This document shows, in pieces, positions 1,900 through 18,382 of a stretch of DNA of 64,000 nt (its first letter is position 1; every line of letters starts with the position of its first letter). The notes under the pieces are model-generated. The model searched no databases. It saw nothing but the letters and a program-made list of their open reading frames with translations, and was not told the origin of the DNA. The DNA is taken from the NCBI RefSeq assembly GCF_007828835.1, contig NZ_VIVL01000003.1:124001-188000 (forward strand), in the 5' to 3' direction. Position numbers and translations under genes: made by a program. This DNA comes from Variovorax beijingensis. Lineage in GTDB: Bacteria > Pseudomonadota > Gammaproteobacteria > Burkholderiales > Burkholderiaceae_C.

Positions 1900-4142
1900 A
1901 GGTTCGACAAGAAAAGAAACCCGCGATCTCGATCGTCATCAACACCCTCAACCGGGGGCCAAGCCTTCACGCAACCATCGAGAGCTTTCAGTGGCTCCGT
2001 TATCAAGGGGATTTCGAGGTCATCGTCGTCAACGGTCCTTCGACAGACAACTCCGAAGAAGTCATTGCCCGCTGGAAAGGCCGTGTCCGGGCCGCACGGT
2101 GTCCGGCTGCCAATCTCTCCGTCTCAAGGAACATCGGCATATGTCTCGCGCGCGGTGAGATCGTCGCGTTCATCGACGACGACGCCATCCCCGAACCGGA
2201 ATGGCTGGAACAGCTGGCGGCCGCCTACGAAGATCCGCAAGTCGGTGCCGCCGGCGGCTTCGTGTTCGATCACACCGGATACGACTTTCAGGCTCAGTAT
2301 TGCGTAATTGATCGCTTCGGCCATGGGGACTCCTCAGTCCGGACGCCGATGCCGCACCTGTCCTATCCCAAGAGCCTGCGCTTCCCCCACCTTCTTGGCG
2401 CGAACTCGTCGTTCAAGACCTCCGCACTGCTCGAGATCGGGGGATTCGACGAAGAGTTCGAATATTTTCTCGACGAAACCGACGTTTGCGCGCGCATCGT
2501 TGATGCCGGGTATCTGATTGCACAGCTCCCCAATGCGTACGTTCATCACAAGTTCGCGCCGAGCAATATTCGCGGGGTCAATCGGGTACCACGCCATCGC
2601 TATCCGATCATCAAGAACAAAATCTACTTCATCCTGAAGCATGCGCGAGAGTTCTATCCACCCGAAGTCCTGTTGCGCGAGCAGTCGACATTCATCGAAT
2701 ACCAGCGCACGGAGATGGCATCGGCCTTCGAAGCAGGTCTGGTTTCCGCCGAAGACGTCGCAACGTTCAATCGGGATGTCGAGCGTGCGGTCGAAACCGG
2801 GCTGCGCCGCGGCCTAGAAGGTCCGAAGCCGGATGCAATGATCGATGGGGCCAAGCGAAGCGCATGGTCCGGGGAGTTCATGCCATTCCCCCCATTGCCT
2901 GATGCCGATCAGTGCACACTGGTACTGATTTCCAAAGGCTACCCACCGGACCACAGCCACGGCATCGCCACCTTCAGTCGCGACCTAGCGGAGGCCTATG
3001 CGGCGCGCGGCAACATCGTCCATGTCATTGCTCAGAGCCCTGACATCAATCGCGTCGATTTCGAAAATGGGGTATGGGTCCACCGCATCGTTCCCAAAAA
3101 ACACCTTCATTTACCGGAGTCCGCAGAAATTGGATTGCCCCAGGACATCTGGAACTGGTCGGCGAGTGCGCATGCCGAAACCGCACGGATCGCAACGCAT
3201 CGCACAGTCGACGTCGTTGAAGCTCCGATCTGGGATTGCGAGGGTGCGGCCTTCTTGTTCGACCGCCGGTGGCCGCTGATCACGAGTCTTCATACGACGC
3301 ACCATTTCTGGTTGGACTCGCATCCAGAACGGCGACAAGATCCCGAGTGGATGGCGTCCTACAGTACGCCGCTGCTGAAAGCCGAGCGATTGCTGATGGA
3401 GAACTCCGACGGGGTTCGAGCCAACAGCCGAGCGATCCGTACAGAAATCGAGAAGGCATACGGTTTCCGATTCGACGATACAAAAGTCCAAGTCATACCG
3501 CACGGATTGAAGCCAGCGAAGATCGTCGAGACGGCAACAGACGATGCCGCAACCGTCGTTCTCTTTGTAGGCCGCTTGGAAGCACGCAAAGGCATCGACG
3601 TGCTACTCGCCGCCATACCGCGCGTACTCGAAGAGGTCCCATCCCTGGTTTTCAGGATCATCGGGGACAAAAGCCAGCTCTCGCCTTCCGGGAAGACCTA
3701 CGCCGAGGACTTCCTTGCATCGGAGAGCGGTAGAAAATTCGCCGCGCAGGTCCGTTTCGAGGGTCACGTCGATGCGACGACGCTCAGTTCAGCCTATGCG
3801 AGTTGCGATGTTTTTGTGGCACCGAGCCGATTCGAGTCATTCGGTTTGGTTTTTCTCGAAGCAATGCGCGCGGCAAAACCGGTCATCGGATGCTCGGCGG
3901 GCGGCATGCCGGAGGTGGTCGAAGACGGCGTATGTGGCCTGCTTGTCCCCCCCGGAAACACCAAAGAACTCGCAGAGGCCATCCTGCGGCTGGTGCGATC
4001 CGAATCCCTCAGGCAGCAGTTCGGCCAAGCGGGTCATGAGCGATTCCGTGAACACTTCTCTGTAGCCCGAATGGCCGCACAGAGTGCCGCTCTCTACAAG
4101 ACTGCTCGAAACATCCGGCTCACCCAACAGAACGAACGATGA
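1896..4142 (+). CDS. Bifunctional glycosyltransferase, GT2-GT4 fusion
   Basis: A 748-aa protein made of two glycosyltransferase domains. Residues about 10-250 are a GT-A fold family 2 domain: SIVINTLNRGPSL at the nucleotide-binding strand and FIDDDAIPEPEW near residue 92, whose acidic triplet is the expected metal and sugar-nucleotide site. Residues about 345-740 are a GT-B fold family 4 domain: LISKGYPPDHSHGIATF, VLFVGRLEARKGIDVL, and APSRFESFGLVFLEAM with the E-x7-E donor-site motif near residue 647. It should add two successive sugars of a repeat unit at the cytoplasmic membrane face; donor identities are unknown. It overlaps both neighbours by 4 bases, so translational coupling is likely. 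Confidence 0.9.
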   Translation: MKVRQEKKPAISIVINTLNRGPSLHATIESFQWLRYQGDFEVIVVNGPSTDNSEEVIARWKGRVRAARCPAANLSVSRNIGICLARGEIVAFIDDDAIPEPEWLEQLAAAYEDPQVGAAGGFVFDHTGYDFQAQYCVIDRFGHGDSSVRTPMPHLSYPKSLRFPHLLGANSSFKTSALLEIGGFDEEFEYFLDETDVCARIVDAGYLIAQLPNAYVHHKFAPSNIRGVNRVPRHRYPIIKNKIYFILKHAREFYPPEVLLREQSTFIEYQRTEMASAFEAGLVSAEDVATFNRDVERAVETGLRRGLEGPKPDAMIDGAKRSAWSGEFMPFPPLPDADQCTLVLISKGYPPDHSHGIATFSRDLAEAYAARGNIVHVIAQSPDINRVDFENGVWVHRIVPKKHLHLPESAEIGLPQDIWNWSASAHAETARIATHRTVDVVEAPIWDCEGAAFLFDRRWPLITSLHTTHHFWLDSHPERRQDPEWMASYSTPLLKAERLLMENSDGVRANSRAIRTEIEKAYGFRFDDTKVQVIPHGLKPAKIVETATDDAATVVLFVGRLEARKGIDVLLAAIPRVLEEVPSLVFRIIGDKSQLSPSGKTYAEDFLASESGRKFAAQVRFEGHVDATTLSSAYASCDVFVAPSRFESFGLVFLEAMRAAKPVIGCSAGGMPEVVEDGVCGLLVPPGNTKELAEAILRLVRSESLRQQFGQAGHERFREHFSVARMAAQSAALYKTARNIRLTQQNER

Positions 4143-5263
4143 AAATATCGTACGTGAACAGCGTCTGCGTACGAAATGACGCGATTTCCAATGCAATTCA
4201 GGATGAGTTCGGCTTCCTAAAGCAAGCGGGGCACGAGGACATTCGGCTCTTCGCATTCCAATGCGATCACTCTGAACTGCCTTTCACACTCTGCCGAAGT
4301 GTTGCCGATATCGCAAGCCATCCGCATTTCTTAAAAAGCGATCTCGTCGTTTTCCATTTTGGCATCTACTATTCGCTTTTCAATCTTTTTCCGATCGTTC
4401 CTAAGCAGACGCAAAAAGTCGTTGTCTTCCACAATATCACTCCCCGCGCCCTGGTTCCCGAGAAAGATCGATGGCTCATTGATAAATCGATTGCTCAACT
4501 CGACAACATTCGGTGGGCCGATCATGTCATTTGCGATAGCAATACCAATCTCAACGTCTTGCGATCGCACGGATTGAGTACGCCGGCCTCGATAGTCCCG
4601 CTGGCGGTTCATTCAAAGATCAGCGTGCCGGAAAGAAAACCGAGTTTTTCCGATGGCACTGTGCGAATCGTCTTTATCGGCCGATTCACCCAGTCCAAGG
4701 GCCCCCACGAATTGCTCGCAGCGATCGACCACTTGGCCTCAAGCCATCAAATGAGTGCACCAGTGCAGTTGGACTTCGTCGGCAACCTCGCCTTCTCGAA
4801 TCCCGACATGATCGCGACCATGGAGAAGATGATTGCAGACATCCATCAGCGACATAGTGCGAATTTGTTGATTCGAATCCATGGGAGCGCCTCGGATGAA
4901 ATGAAACACAGGCTCCTCAGCGAAGCCGATGTCTTTGCCTTGCCGACTTATCACGAAGGCTTCTGCGTTCCGATCATCGAAGCCATCGCGAGCGGCTGTC
5001 GCGTGGTTGTCTATGACAACTCGAACACCCACGATGTCGCGGGCAAGTTCGGTACGATGGTTCGAACCGGTGATATTGGAGAATTCGCGCATGCGCTGCA
5101 GTCGGTGATGAGTCAGGTACAGTCGGCCGACTGGCGCGAAGGCCGAGGAGAGAAAAGCTATACCCGGTACGCCGACGCAGGCAGAGAGTATGCGCGTCGA
5201 TTTTCACCCGATCGCATCGGCCCGGCATTTCTACGCACGCTCCGTAACATCACGATCAGGTAG
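4139..5263 (+). CDS. Glycosyltransferase family 4
   Basis: A 374-aa GT-B glycosyltransferase. The N-terminal acceptor half contains VVFHFGIYYSLFNLFP and VVFHNITPRALVPEKDRW. The C-terminal donor half contains RIVFIGRFTQSKGPHELL and the family 4 motif ALPTYHEGFCVPIIEAIASG, with the two conserved Glu residues flanking FCVPII. A retaining transferase acting on a lipid-linked glycan is expected; donor and linkage are unknown. It overlaps the preceding GT2-GT4 gene by 4 bases. This gene is among the most AT-rich in the window, which fits recent exchange within the polysaccharide locus. Confidence 0.88.
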   Translation: MKISYVNSVCVRNDAISNAIQDEFGFLKQAGHEDIRLFAFQCDHSELPFTLCRSVADIASHPHFLKSDLVVFHFGIYYSLFNLFPIVPKQTQKVVVFHNITPRALVPEKDRWLIDKSIAQLDNIRWADHVICDSNTNLNVLRSHGLSTPASIVPLAVHSKISVPERKPSFSDGTVRIVFIGRFTQSKGPHELLAAIDHLASSHQMSAPVQLDFVGNLAFSNPDMIATMEKMIADIHQRHSANLLIRIHGSASDEMKHRLLSEADVFALPTYHEGFCVPIIEAIASGCRVVVYDNSNTHDVAGKFGTMVRTGDIGEFAHALQSVMSQVQSADWREGRGEKSYTRYADAGREYARRFSPDRIGPAFLRTLRNITIR

Positions 5264-14238: not shown

Positions 14239-15317
14239 GCCGCGGCCTGGGCCGCGGGGGCGGCGTCGTATTGCTTCTCGACCCATGCACGGTAGGCGCC
14301 GCTTTGCACGTTGCGCACCCATTCGCCGTTGGCGAGGTACCACTGGACGGTCTTGCGGATGCCGCTGTCGAAGGTTTCGGCGGGCTTCCAGCCGAGCTCG
14401 CGCTCGAGCTTGCGCGCGTCGATGGCGTAGCGCCGGTCGTGGCCGGGGCGGTCGGTGACGTAGCTGATCTGCGCCTTGTAGGGCTGGCCGTCGGCGCGCG
14501 GGCGCAGTTCGTCGAGCAGGGCGCAGACGGTGTTGACGATCTCGATGTTGGGCTTCTCGTTCCAGCCGCCGACGTTGTAGGTCTCGCCGAGCTTGCCGGC
14601 TTCGAGCACGCGGCGGATGGCGCTGCAGTGGTCCTTCACGTAGAGCCAGTCGCGCACCTGCATGCCGTCGCCGTACACGGGCAGGGGCTTGCCGGCCAGG
14701 GCGTTGACGATCATCAGCGGGATGAGCTTCTCGGGGAAGTGGAAGGGCCCGTAGTTGTTGGAGCAGTTGGTGGTGACGACCGGCAGGCCGTAGGTGTGGT
14801 GCCAGGCGCGCACGAGGTGGTCGCTGGCGGCCTTGCTGGCCGAGTAGGGGCTGTTGGGCTCGTACTTGTTGTCTTCGGTGAAGGCGGGGTCGGTCTTGGA
14901 GAGCGAGCCGTAGACCTCGTCGGTGGACACGTGCAGGAAGCGGAAGGCGGCCTTCTGCTCGGCCGGCAGCGCGCTCCAGTAGCCGCGCACGGACTCGAGC
15001 AGGCGGAAGGTGCCGAGCACGTTGGTCTGCACGAAGTCTTCGGGGCCGTGGATGGAGCGGTCGACGTGTGATTCCGCGGCAAAGTTCACAATGGCCCGCG
15101 GTTTGTGCTCGGCCAGCAGGCGATCGACCAGGGCGCTGTCGCCGATGTCGCCCTGCGCGAAGATGTGCCGCGGGTCGCCCTTGAGGGACGCGAGCGTCTC
15201 GAGATTGCCGGCGTAGGTCAGTTTGTCGAGATTCACGACAGGCTCGTCGCTCTGCGCCAGCCAGTCGAGTACGAAGTTGGCGCCGATGAAGCCCGCGCCG
15301 CCGGTTACCAGGATCAT
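14235..15317 (-). CDS. rfbB: dTDP-glucose 4,6-dehydratase
   Basis: A 360-aa extended SDR (RmlB) making dTDP-4-dehydro-6-deoxyglucose. Motifs: [42 protein letters not shown] (catalytic Thr-Asp-Glu), [17 protein letters not shown] (Y-x3-K) and [16 protein letters not shown]. It is the first gene of the reverse operon rfbB-rfbD-rfbA-rfbC, with an AGGGGA ribosome site just upstream. The operon start is divergent from the glycine riboswitch transcript. Confidence 0.97.
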
Positions 15318-15403: not shown

Positions 15404-15432
15404 TTGGCCTGTCCGCAGGCACCGCCTACAAT
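15404..15432 (+). promoter_or_regulatory. Sigma70-type promoter of the glycine riboswitch transcript
   Basis: TTGGCC at 15404-15409 and TACAAT at 15427-15432 are separated by exactly 17 bases. Transcription would begin around 15439-15440, immediately before the first aptamer. The position fits a dedicated promoter for the riboswitch-dadA unit. Confidence 0.7.
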
Positions 15433-15440
15433 TGCCCCCA

Positions 15441-15640
15441 CTGCAGGAGAGCGGGCAACCCCGGGTTGCCCTACCGAAGGCGCAAACTCCCATAAACGCT
15501 CAGGTCGGCCCGAACAAGGGGCCTGTACTGCACCACATCAAATGCCGTCTGGAGAGCCATCGCCCCGCGCGATGCACCGAAGGAGCAAACCCGTTGCAAG
15601 GTGCAACAGGTGAATCTCTCAGGTACCAAGGACAGGGGGA
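15441..15640 (+). promoter_or_regulatory. Tandem glycine riboswitch
   Basis: Two glycine aptamers follow one another. Aptamer 1 (about 15441-15520) has GCAGGAGAGC, a perfect P2-like hairpin GGGCAAC/GTTGCCC, the core ACCGAAGGCGCAAAC and the closing GCTCAGGT. Aptamer 2 (about 15546-15640) has CTGGAGAGCC, hairpin CATCG/CGATG, core CACCGAAGGAGCAAACC, hairpin GTTGCA/TGCAAC and the canonical TCTCTCAGGTACCAAGGACA. These conserved blocks are those of the known gcvT-type glycine element. In this family glycine binding usually turns on glycine-catabolism genes. Here the downstream gene is a D-amino-acid/glycine-type FAD dehydrogenase. Confidence 0.95.
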
Positions 15641-15643
15641 GCG

Positions 15644-15671
15644 GCAACTTGGACGGCGTTCGTCCGGTTGC
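15644..15671 (+). promoter_or_regulatory. Putative expression-platform hairpin of the riboswitch
   Basis: Directly after aptamer 2 the RNA can form a stem with GCAAC (15644-15648) paired to GTTGC (15667-15671) and an inner GGACG/CGTCC stem. No run of U follows, so an intrinsic terminator is doubtful. Control of translation or alternative pairing with the aptamer 2 closing stem is more plausible. About 65 bases remain before the dadA ATG. Confidence 0.45.
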
Positions 15672-15736
15672 TTGCTATTGAATCAGTAGCACACCAAGTC
15701 CGCCGTTCAGGTGCCCATCTTCAAAAGGTACTTGAA

Positions 15737-17038
15737 ATGCGCGTGTTCGTTCTTGGCGCCGGCCTGCTCGGCGTGACTTCTGCTTACTACCTCCAGCAAC
15801 TCGGCCACGAAGTGACCGTGATCGACCGGCAGGCCACGCCGGCCGCCGAAACCAGCTTTGCCAATGGCGGGCAGATCTCGGTCAGCCATGCCGAGCCCTG
15901 GGCCAACCCGAGCGCTCCGCTCAAGGTGCTGCAATGGCTGGGCAGGGAAGACGCACCGCTGCTCTTTCGCATCCGCGCCGACATGCGCCAGTGGCTCTGG
16001 GGCCTGCAGTTCCTGCGCGAATGCACGCCGGCGCGCACCCGGCACAACATCGAGCAGATCGTGCGGCTGGGCACCTACAGCCGCGACGTGCTGCAGCAGC
16101 TGCGCCGCGACACCGGCCTGGACTACGACCAGCGCACGCAGGGCATCCTGCACTTCTATACGACGCAAAAGGAGTTCGACGGCGCCCTGGAGCCGGCCGA
16201 GCAGATGCGCGCGCTCGGCTGCGAGCGGCGGGTGATCTCGGCCGATGAGGCTGTGAAGATCGAGCCCGCCCTCGCCCACATCCGCCCGAAGCTGGCCGGC
16301 GCCACTTACACGGCGGAGGACGAGTCCGGCGACGCGAACCTTTTTGCGCGCGAGCTGGCGAAGCGCGCGGCCGCAGCGGGCGTGAAGTTCCTCATGAGCC
16401 ACACGGTCACGGCGCTGCGCGAGGCCGGCGGCAGCATCGACCATGTCGAAGCCACCGACAGTGAAGGCCGCTTCCAGCGCATCCGGGGCGACGCCTTCGT
16501 GCTCGCGATGGGTTCGCTGAGCCCGCTTTACGCGGCGCCGCTGGGCATTCGGCTGCCGATCTATCCGGCCAAGGGCTATTCGGTGACGCTGCCGGTGAAG
16601 GATACCTCCAAGGCGCACCAGGTCTCGCTGACCGACGACGAGTTCAAGCTCGTGTTCTCGCGCTACACCTCGGCCTCGGGCGACCGCCTGCGCATTGCCG
16701 GAACGGCCGAGCTCAACGGCTACGACCGCGACCTGAACCGCGTGCGCTGCGAGGCGATCGTGCGGCGCGTCGAAGAACTTTTTCCGGGCGCCGGCGACAC
16801 CGCGCAGGCCCAGTTCTGGACCGGCCTGCGCCCCGCGACGCCGAGCAACGTGCCGCTGATCGGCAAGACGAAACTGCCGAACCTGTACCTGAACACCGGC
16901 CATGGCACGCTCGGCTGGACGCACGCCTGCGGCTCGGGCAAGTCGATCGCGCGCATCGTGAGCGGGCTCGCGCCCGAGGTGGACTTTGCGTTCACCGGCC
17001 TGCCAGCGCCGGCAGCGGCCATGCTGCAACCGGCCTGA
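15737..17038 (+). CDS. dadA: D-amino acid dehydrogenase, FAD-dependent
   Basis: A 433-aa flavoprotein that oxidises D-amino acids (classically D-alanine) to 2-oxo acids, passing electrons to the respiratory chain. MRVFVLGAGLLGVTSAYYL holds the FAD glycine motif at residues 7-12, followed by VIDRQ for the ribose. The family segment ETSFANGGQISVSHAEPWAN comes next, and GLRPATPSNVPLIG near the C terminus closes the FAD domain. ATG 15737 has an AAAGG ribosome site and gives full length. Control by a tandem glycine riboswitch suggests glycine or a glycine-linked D-amino acid is a physiological substrate or signal; that is inference. Confidence 0.92.
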   Translation: MRVFVLGAGLLGVTSAYYLQQLGHEVTVIDRQATPAAETSFANGGQISVSHAEPWANPSAPLKVLQWLGREDAPLLFRIRADMRQWLWGLQFLRECTPARTRHNIEQIVRLGTYSRDVLQQLRRDTGLDYDQRTQGILHFYTTQKEFDGALEPAEQMRALGCERRVISADEAVKIEPALAHIRPKLAGATYTAEDESGDANLFARELAKRAAAAGVKFLMSHTVTALREAGGSIDHVEATDSEGRFQRIRGDAFVLAMGSLSPLYAAPLGIRLPIYPAKGYSVTLPVKDTSKAHQVSLTDDEFKLVFSRYTSASGDRLRIAGTAELNGYDRDLNRVRCEAIVRRVEELFPGAGDTAQAQFWTGLRPATPSNVPLIGKTKLPNLYLNTGHGTLGWTHACGSGKSIARIVSGLAPEVDFAFTGLPAPAAAMLQPA

Positions 17039-17056: not shown

Positions 17057-18337
17057 TCAGTCCTTGCTGGTGAACACCGTCAGCACGCCTGTGTAGCCGT
17101 ACAGGTGATGGCGGGCGATTTCGCCCGCGGCGAAGAAGCCGACCAGCGGCACGTCGCCCAGCGCGTGCCGCACGATCTGCAGCTCGGCACCCGGCGCGCC
17201 GAAATGCGGCCCGCCGCGCCCCGAGCAGCTCACGTACACGGCGCCCGCGATGCGGCGCGCCGGATGCGGCGCGGCTTCAGCCTCCCCGGCCGCGACAGCG
17301 CGTGCGGTGGCCAGCGTCTGCTCCTCGGGCTCGAGTTCCTCGCGGATTTCCGCGCAGATGCGCATCAGGTCGGCGCGCGCGGCCTGCGCATTGCGGCGGC
17401 AGAAGGTCAGGCGCATGCCGGCCTCCGCCACGTCGGCAATCGCGATGCCGCGGCGCGTGGGATCCAGTCCGATGATGTGGCGCACCAGCACGTCGGCCCC
17501 CAGGTCACCGGTGCGGCGGATGCCGTCACTGCCGGCGTCGGCGAGGCCCACCAGGGTGGCGCGCACGGCGTCGATGGCTTCCTGCGGCCGCTCGAGCGAC
17601 ACCTGCAGGTCGGCCAGCAGCACGTCGAGCGCGGGCTCGCCGTCGAGCTTGAGCAGCAGGTTGCCGTCGGCTTCGGTGATCTCGCGCTCGCGCCCCGCGC
17701 CCGAGCGCAGCGGCTGGCAGCCCTGGGTGACGCGCGACACCAGCCGCACGCCTTCGCCGAACACCACGCCCGATAAGCCGCCCGAGAAGACGCCGCCCGC
17801 GGCGCCGTGCCCGCGGATGTTGCCGTTGCCGCCGACCGCGAACTGCAGCGCGCCCGCACGGCCCGACGAGAGCCCGCCGAACAGATAGCCGGTGTTGGTG
17901 CGGCCCGCCATCTCGCCGATGAGTTCGGTCAGGTCGGGGGTGGCGGGGTCCGCGTGCACCAGCGCCGTATGGGCCTCGAAGCCGCTCATCTCGGAATTGC
18001 CCAGCGGCGCCACGCCGGAGAACACGCGGTACTGGTCGCTCGGCAATGCGCAGAGCATCAGGCTCAGGCCGGGCTCGTCGAAATATTCGGCATTGTTGGC
18101 CGAGACGCCGATGCCGACCGTGCCGGACCAGTCGGTGACCTCGGGCAGTTCGGCGCTCAGGTGGTCGAGGATGTCCTGCGCATCCGACGCGTAGTGGTCG
18201 GTGATATAGAGCAGCCCGAGCGTGGGCGACGCCGCGTAGTCGGGCAGCGCCATCTGCGCGCGCAACTGGGCCAGCACGAGGCCGGCTGCCATGCGCCATT
18301 GCGGGTGGGTGGCATGGCCGGAAGGAAACAGCTTCAT
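17057..18337 (-). CDS. FIST-domain ligand-sensing protein
   Basis: A 426-aa soluble protein with FIST_N (about 30-230) followed by FIST_C (about 240-400). Recognisable segments are LGLLYITDHYASDAQDIL, GVSANNAEYFDEPG, GYLFGGLSSGRAGA, GVFSGGLSGVVFGEG and YVSCSGRGGPHFGAPGAE. FIST modules are regarded as small-ligand sensors linked to signal transduction, with amino acids proposed as ligands. This copy lacks any attached output domain. ATG 18337 is preferred over an in-frame TTG at 18349. It is convergent with dadA (18-base gap), and the amino-acid genes nearby would suit an amino-acid ligand, but no partner is adjacent. Confidence 0.85.
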   Translation of the reverse strand: MKLFPSGHATHPQWRMAAGLVLAQLRAQMALPDYAASPTLGLLYITDHYASDAQDILDHLSAELPEVTDWSGTVGIGVSANNAEYFDEPGLSLMLCALPSDQYRVFSGVAPLGNSEMSGFEAHTALVHADPATPDLTELIGEMAGRTNTGYLFGGLSSGRAGALQFAVGGNGNIRGHGAAGGVFSGGLSGVVFGEGVRLVSRVTQGCQPLRSGAGREREITEADGNLLLKLDGEPALDVLLADLQVSLERPQEAIDAVRATLVGLADAGSDGIRRTGDLGADVLVRHIIGLDPTRRGIAIADVAEAGMRLTFCRRNAQAARADLMRICAEIREELEPEEQTLATARAVAAGEAEAAPHPARRIAGAVYVSCSGRGGPHFGAPGAELQIVRHALGDVPLVGFFAAGEIARHHLYGYTGVLTVFTSKD

Positions 18338-18382
18338 GATGCGTGCCAACCCGTTCTCTTCAAGAAATGTGTGTGTATGACG

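Follow-up and report, generated by a model that had tools for sequence, protein, structure and literature searches.

A tandem glycine riboswitch precedes a gene for a DadA-like FAD-dependent dehydrogenase in Variovorax beijingensis and related bacteria

The window, a 64,000-nucleotide stretch of the Variovorax beijingensis genome, encodes on its forward strand a DadA-like FAD-dependent amino-acid dehydrogenase of 433 amino acids (P0001, positions 15,737–17,038). The next open reading frame past it, FIST-like by its translation, lies on the opposite strand (17,057–18,349). A scan of the whole window with Rfam at gathering thresholds returned two matches only, both to the Glycine family (RF00504), both on the forward strand and both in the leader of the dehydrogenase gene: aptamer 1, with a short P3b, at 15,434–15,535 (37.2 bits, E = 0.00069), and aptamer 2 at 15,539–15,645 (56.9 bits, E = 4.3 × 10−9). 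Each match is full length (model positions 1–94) and above the gathering cut-off of 32 bits, as a preliminary description of this DNA had led us to expect when it named two complete glycine aptamers, and a genuine tandem glycine riboswitch in front of the dadA-like gene is confirmed. The promoter with 17-bp spacing that the same description had placed here is also present, as a sigma-70-type TTGGCC-17-TACAAT (15,404–15,432, + strand) with 9 of 12 consensus letters; it was the one promoter found between 15,300 and 15,780, against a mean of 0.1 in shuffled sequences. Of 26 leaders inspected, 18 have TACAAT or TAGAAT 10–14 nt 5′ of the point where GGAGA first occurs in aptamer 1, and because the place of the −10 box is conserved, the transcript probably starts inside the first helix of aptamer 1. 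Such a promoter would leave little room for a kink-turn or P0 helix formed from the 5′ leader. Between the aptamers and the gene we found no terminator-like site (the sole one found lies upstream, at 15,311), which points to translational control; the Shine-Dalgarno sequence, AAAAGG, is at 15,723–15,728 (+ strand). The stability of the leader as a whole is unremarkable (z = −1.40, with 9 of 100 shuffles folding equally well).

Downstream of the aptamers lies a platform region with two hairpins. The first (15,644–15,671, + strand; GCAAC...GUUGC), a possible platform hairpin in the preliminary description, proved to have a helix with compensatory changes: among 40 aligned long leaders, 92.8% of the cells of its outer helix are paired, with 11–15 sequences gapped there, and at one pair A-U is replaced by G-C in nine of the leaders. 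Taking the named platform structure as a whole, none of 500 shuffles reached its pairing or its covariation score, and versions of the structure slid along the alignment scored lower than the named one on both measures; the version slid by −3 has equally many doubly changed pairs (12) and more such cells (52 vs. 42). RNAalifold returned no structure for the platform alignment, and the named structure was counted instead. The second hairpin (15,674–15,690, + strand) is the palindrome GCTATTGAATCAGTAGC, similar to palindromes elsewhere in the genome. It fits the pattern GCTATTNNNTNAATAGC, which occurs at 13 distinct genome sites (19 rows in a search of both strands with at most one mismatch; the reversed pattern gave one per strand), and may be a dispersed repeat that the leader has taken up.

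Across the whole assembly, six RF00504 matches form three tandem pairs, including that of the window. One of the other pairs precedes gcvT, gcvH, and gcvP, named from their translations. Another precedes a peptide-type ABC operon (L007, 1519–8001; C2:500518–507000 of the same genome), an unusual target, whose content includes an SBP_bac_5 binding protein (Pfam), an M81-family peptidase, and frames whose translations suggest two permeases plus an ABC ATPase.

The association of switch and gene extends well beyond this genome. Among 120 sampled genomes of the family, its own included, 36 contain a homologue at E ≤ 1e-150 and 84 do not, so the function of the gene is dispensable; in 35 of these 36 genomes the aptamers are found immediately upstream of the gene. 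Loci from 29 of the 36 genomes were scanned with Rfam, and 28 have an aptamer directly upstream, the exception being L041; in the remaining seven (the V. beijingensis genome itself, G007, G028, G036, G077, G096, and G100) the aptamer is directly upstream by coordinates. On named GTDB contigs, searched with a model (R1, E ≤ 0.05) made from 34 aptamers, 30 of them of this class and none from these loci, the switch precedes the gene in 74 of 80 loci, and all but two of the 74 (72) have both aptamers. These 80 loci are not fully independent of the family genomes, as identical proteins occur (L019/L074, L020/L078, and L029/L099). Six named loci are without a switch (L095, L105, L107, L114, L120, and L125); the contig of L125 starts within the gene, and different upstream contexts are seen in the remaining five. 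Matches at E ≤ 1e-125 were found in 92 of 200 genomes sampled across the order, and 28 new loci from among them were examined (L129–L156, of which L134 belongs to the same family and L131 cannot be judged, its contig starting at the gene); the switch is present in 13 of the 27 judgeable loci, in seven family groups. In a sample of the class, 4 of 274 genomes match at the same threshold, V. beijingensis included, and the loci of the other three are without a switch. Conservation of the link across seven family groups of the order argues that it is functional. In one family genome the riboswitch-linked dehydrogenase gene is present twice, each copy on its own contig (G011:C14:55360–56879).

Aptamer 1 of the window is just 5 bits above the cut-off, and among the 28 family loci with an Rfam match both aptamers pass it in only 12, with one passing in the others. 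Such figures could be expected if the aptamers were a chance occurrence or a decayed leftover that does not regulate the gene, a reading that we consider highly improbable given how consistently the link is kept in the family genomes and named loci and given the retention of both the pocket cores and a pseudoknot between the aptamers.

That retention was assessed in the leaders. From 150 leaders tried, 126 had the aptamer motif, 22 were without it, and two (L125 and L130) were without a start codon in place. Ten of the 126, in which CCGAAGG occurs less than twice, were set aside (L117, the chance motif matches L142 and L143, and seven duplicated upstream copies), leaving 116. The core of aptamer 1, CCGAAGGCG, is kept in 115 of the 116, and that of aptamer 2 in 112, its TCTCAGG part being present in all. 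The pseudoknot, P5, joins CUCCC, within P3b of aptamer 1 (15,487–15,491, + strand), to GGGAG, which follows aptamer 2 (15,637–15,641, + strand). These same tracts occur in 103 of the 116 leaders, and nine more have other fully complementary tracts, among them CUCUCA:UGAGAG, CUUCCA:UGGAAG, CCCUC:GAGGG, and CCGCCCG:CGGGCGG. The four exceptions are L103, L137, and L138, with four pairs only, and L064_up, with a misread motif. Grouped into 19 distinct types, 15 have at least five Watson-Crick pairs; 5000 shuffles averaged 8.5 such types and never exceeded 14, a statistic that ignores kinship among the leaders. The two halves of P5 covary. In excerpts of PMC13104608 (citing Torgerson 2020), this pairing of a P3b C tract with a G tract after aptamer 2 is described as frequent in ON switches and absent in OFF switches. 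The present leaders have this ON-type trait, so that the OFF-type absence of P5 does not apply to them, and they have a second one in the three G-C pairs within a conserved pocket of aptamer 1 (CCGAAGGCG and CGCTCAGG, each in 115 of 116 leaders).

A possible means of control lies in aptamer 2, where CAGGUACC (15,620–15,627, + strand) is complementary to the ribosome-binding region at 15,727–15,734 (eight pairs, one of them G-U). It can pair with GGUACUUG over the Shine-Dalgarno sequence with z = −2.84, a value equaled by none of 100 shuffles. Over 126 leaders, which are related and whose z-scores are not independent, z averages −1.30 and is positive in 27 cases; for 21 switchless leaders the mean is about −0.08, as summed from individual values. 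The largest block of strong scores comes from closely related Variovorax, and strong cases outside it are L135 (−4.46) and L029/L099 (−3.63). When the aptamer 2 fold was forced in 122 of the 126 leaders (L085, L117, L142, and L143 being left out), exposure of the Shine-Dalgarno sequence changed by a mean of −0.008, rising by more than 0.2 in 12 leaders and falling by as much in 13; in the window leader it went from 0.59 to 0.58. In the full window leader, the aptamer–Shine-Dalgarno duplex has a probability of about 0.15; if folding is restricted to the RNA from aptamer 2 on, this becomes about 0.63. As the minimum-energy fold of the window leader this duplex was ruled out, aptamer 2 pairing there with 15,710–15,715. 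Thermodynamic folding gave no net or consistent direction across leaders and was dropped as a guide to the direction of switching.

Turning to the protein, P0001 scores above the cut-off of the NCBIfam model PRK00711, D-amino acid dehydrogenase (493 vs. 383 bits), and far below that of the ThiO glycine-oxidase model TIGR02352 (114.8 vs. 250.8). It shares PRK00711 membership, the Pfam DAO domain, and 40% identity with E. coli DadA (b1189), whereas two other genes of its own genome are 61% and 57% identical to DadA. E. coli dadA is followed by dadX, unlike the window gene, which is followed by the convergent FIST-like frame. With ThiO, P0001 shares the DAO domain, although it falls well under the cut-off. 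None of six paralogues scanned in the same genome, a set including the two nearest E. coli DadA and leaving out L017 and L018, has a glycine aptamer. In a tree of 91 proteins, a starred branch sets E. coli DadA and its two relatives in this genome apart from P0001; the tree was built by a quick method, and the long-branch warning of the program falls on the DadA/P0001 join itself. Mapped onto this tree, presence of the switch takes 15 changes, against 24.2 in shuffles, so that the switch is clustered and yet must have been acquired or lost repeatedly. All 29 of the 29 switch-linked proteins compared share 30 fixed positions at which the three DadA proteins differ from them. Among these are V49, S50, H51, and H396, residues that, by analogy with glycine oxidase, may line the pocket. 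By sequence, the closest proteins of solved structure are glycine oxidases (4ysh and 7cyx) and sarcosine oxidases. A structure prediction for the protein from a 20-row alignment had a mean pLDDT of 60 and was not used. These comparisons place the window gene in a subfamily separate from that of E. coli DadA, to which it is not orthologous. The naming of the gene as dadA in the preliminary description is accordingly supported as far as membership in PRK00711 goes, and its orthology to the E. coli gene is not; by the same token, the role in D-amino-acid balance that was suggested there is compatible with PRK00711 and made less natural, as regards D-alanine, by the separate subfamily. At the locus of the V. 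beijingensis gene nearest E. coli DadA (L012, on C7 of the same genome), two matches to the xanthine (NMT1) riboswitch lie on opposite strands about 100 nt apart (3940–3987, − strand, and 4083–4150, + strand).

An M20 amidohydrolase lies within 5 kb of the dehydrogenase gene in 18 of the 80 named loci, at 73–100% identity to the copy in L066 (that of L097 is in two pieces). Enzymes of this kind free amino acids from N-acyl conjugates. The two that were scanned, from L066 and L078, exceed the cut-off of TIGR01891. In L066 (6276–9445), a LysR regulator, a TctC-type binding protein, and the amidohydrolase stand beside the riboswitch–dehydrogenase gene, and in L078 (1544–4750) a LysR regulator and the amidohydrolase do so, the TctC-type protein being HMM-checked in L066 only. 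Such neighborhoods look like N-acyl-amino-acid utilization clusters; gene-neighbor clustering was crowded by antisense frames of the GC-rich DNA, and the HMM checks cover L066 and L078. This setting bears on the substrate. The switch might be an ON switch in which glycine is only a signal of diet, for example of the breakdown of murein or peptides, while the enzyme acts on a D-amino acid or on an amino acid released from an N-acyl conjugate or peptide. The adjoining amidohydrolase, LysR regulator, and TctC-type protein in part of the clade would suit this reading, as would PRK00711 membership and the tandem glycine switch on the peptide-type ABC operon with its M81 peptidase. We find it doubtful nonetheless, since it requires glycine as a proxy, the subfamily is unlike DadA at the 30 fixed positions, and three of the 18 amidohydrolase loci (L095, L107, and L120) are without the switch.

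In 10 of the 80 named loci, a second glycine switch lies about 0.8–1.6 kb upstream of the first, with both aptamers in eight and aptamer 2 alone in L069 and L071. The riboswitch–dehydrogenase unit is duplicated in L058, L062–L066, L069, L071, and L082 (at about 3100–4700) and in L081 (3890–4650). Nine of the second switches lead a second dehydrogenase gene, at 39–46% identity; the tenth, that of L081, is kept in front of a gene that lacks a full-length frame and shows just a 75-residue match. Eight upstream copies from Variovorax have an aptamer 1 that is without GGAGAG and in which the GAA of CCGAAGG is changed; the same eight retain the CUCCC loop and the GGGAG tract. The seven upstream proteins in the tree form a long branch within the P0001 clade.

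Among 70 non-redundant leaders, aptamer 2 has 32 invariant columns and aptamer 1 has 23, at nearly equal mean pairwise identity (0.63 vs. 0.61). The ON-type pattern of glycine-cleavage contexts, with aptamer 1 better conserved than aptamer 2, was not found. According to excerpts of PMC6944388, conservation of aptamer 2 goes with transporter contexts, and these are called OFF in excerpts of PMC13104608. The transporter class of PMC6944388, tandem or singlet, as excerpted, resembles the present leaders in that aptamer 2 has more conserved columns, and differs from them in that here P5 is present and covaries and the target is an enzyme, not a symporter. An OFF switch would mean that high glycine shuts down a D-amino-acid dehydrogenase and thereby spares D-alanine for the cell wall against competing glycine. 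Apart from the excess of invariant columns in aptamer 2, an OFF-type trait in those excerpts, the name given to the protein by PRK00711 and the duplicated upstream copies, where aptamer 1 decays and aptamer 2 stays intact, would fit such a role. We consider it unlikely, because P5 tracts that covary are complementary in 112 of 116 leaders and the excerpted literature describes this feature as absent in OFF switches, because the core of aptamer 1 with its GCG/CGC pairs is kept in 115 of 116, and because the V. beijingensis genes nearest E. coli DadA have no switch.

The closest precedent is the tandem switch of Neisseria gonorrhoeae gcvT, which, in the excerpted text of PMC13104608, raises expression with glycine and, without glycine, masks the ribosome-binding site with aptamer 2. 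The excerpts and the present leaders have in common two RF00504 aptamers, P5-type tracts, a beta-proteobacterial host, an aptamer 2 complementary to the ribosome-binding region, and the lack of a terminator among the sites found. Unlike the Neisseria switch as excerpted, the one described here controls a gene for an FAD dehydrogenase instead of glycine-cleavage genes, the higher score and the larger number of conserved columns belong to its aptamer 2, not aptamer 1, and its leader has platform hairpins of its own. Mainly on account of P5 and this precedent, we infer that the direction is probably ON.

Our preferred reading, to which we give a probability of about 0.5, is a translational ON switch by which glycine turns on an FAD dehydrogenase for glycine catabolism. 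At high glycine, both aptamers would fold and be tied together by P5, between CUCCC of aptamer 1 and GGGAG after aptamer 2. The tied fold would keep aptamer 2 off the ribosome-binding region, as the proposed mechanism of release, and the gene would be translated. The dehydrogenase would then pass electrons from an amino acid to the respiratory chain; glycine itself is the most likely such substrate, at roughly even odds. The enzyme might take up the overflow alongside the glycine-cleavage system, the gcvTHP genes of the same genome being likewise under a tandem glycine switch. The amidohydrolase near 18 of the 80 named loci counts in favor of this reading; the PRK00711 name of the protein, its low ThiO score, and the occurrence of the gene in only 36 of 120 family genomes count against it. 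A respiratory route for glycine removal had been proposed in the preliminary description, and the ON direction that it requires is favored by the covarying P5, whereas folding gives no direction.

Extending this ON reading, we tentatively suggest, as a combination that we think somewhat less likely than its absence, that the switch-linked clade is an unrecognized respiratory glycine dehydrogenase, that its leaders form a mixed ON/OFF class, and that a transition from tandem to singlet is under way. The mixed class would couple ON wiring (P5 and masking by aptamer 2) to the OFF-type conservation in which aptamer 2 is foremost, and in the transition aptamer 1 of the upstream Variovorax copies would be becoming a ghost aptamer with its P5 loop kept.

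Among the targets of glycine riboswitches, the excerpted text of PMC3766115 counts twelve in glycine metabolism, three transporters, and three in serine metabolism, with Burkholderia and Ralstonia as its beta-proteobacterial groups, and that of PMC2211319 adds malate synthase and serC. The view that such tandem switches classically control gcvTHP or symporters, from which the preliminary description set out, is correct for those targets and incomplete, as malate synthase, serC, and sdaA are in print in the excerpted literature. The word “dadA” is absent from the main text of PMC3766115 as excerpted, no “D-amino” was found in the excerpts of PMC2258182 and PMC12452182, and in those of PMC5760752 “riboswitch” and “D-amino acid dehydrogenase” occur unrelated to each other. 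Among the article texts covered by our search, in part as excerpts and apart from the supplementary target lists of PMC3766115 and PMC2211319, we found no paper joining a glycine riboswitch to DadA; the pair may possibly have been cataloged earlier in such supplementary lists or in RegPrecise.

The identity of a riboswitch reveals which ligand is relevant to the gene that follows. In this case the switch flags a subfamily that is automatically called D-amino acid dehydrogenase as one that is probably tied to glycine, in many soil and water bacteria. The mixture of ON and OFF hallmarks in its leaders offers a test of the published rule by which retention of one aptamer or the other depends on the regulated gene. 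If the enzyme oxidizes glycine, it would provide a folate-independent, respiration-linked outlet for this amino acid, and the link between switch and gene suggests an overlooked route by which these bacteria may burn off excess glycine.
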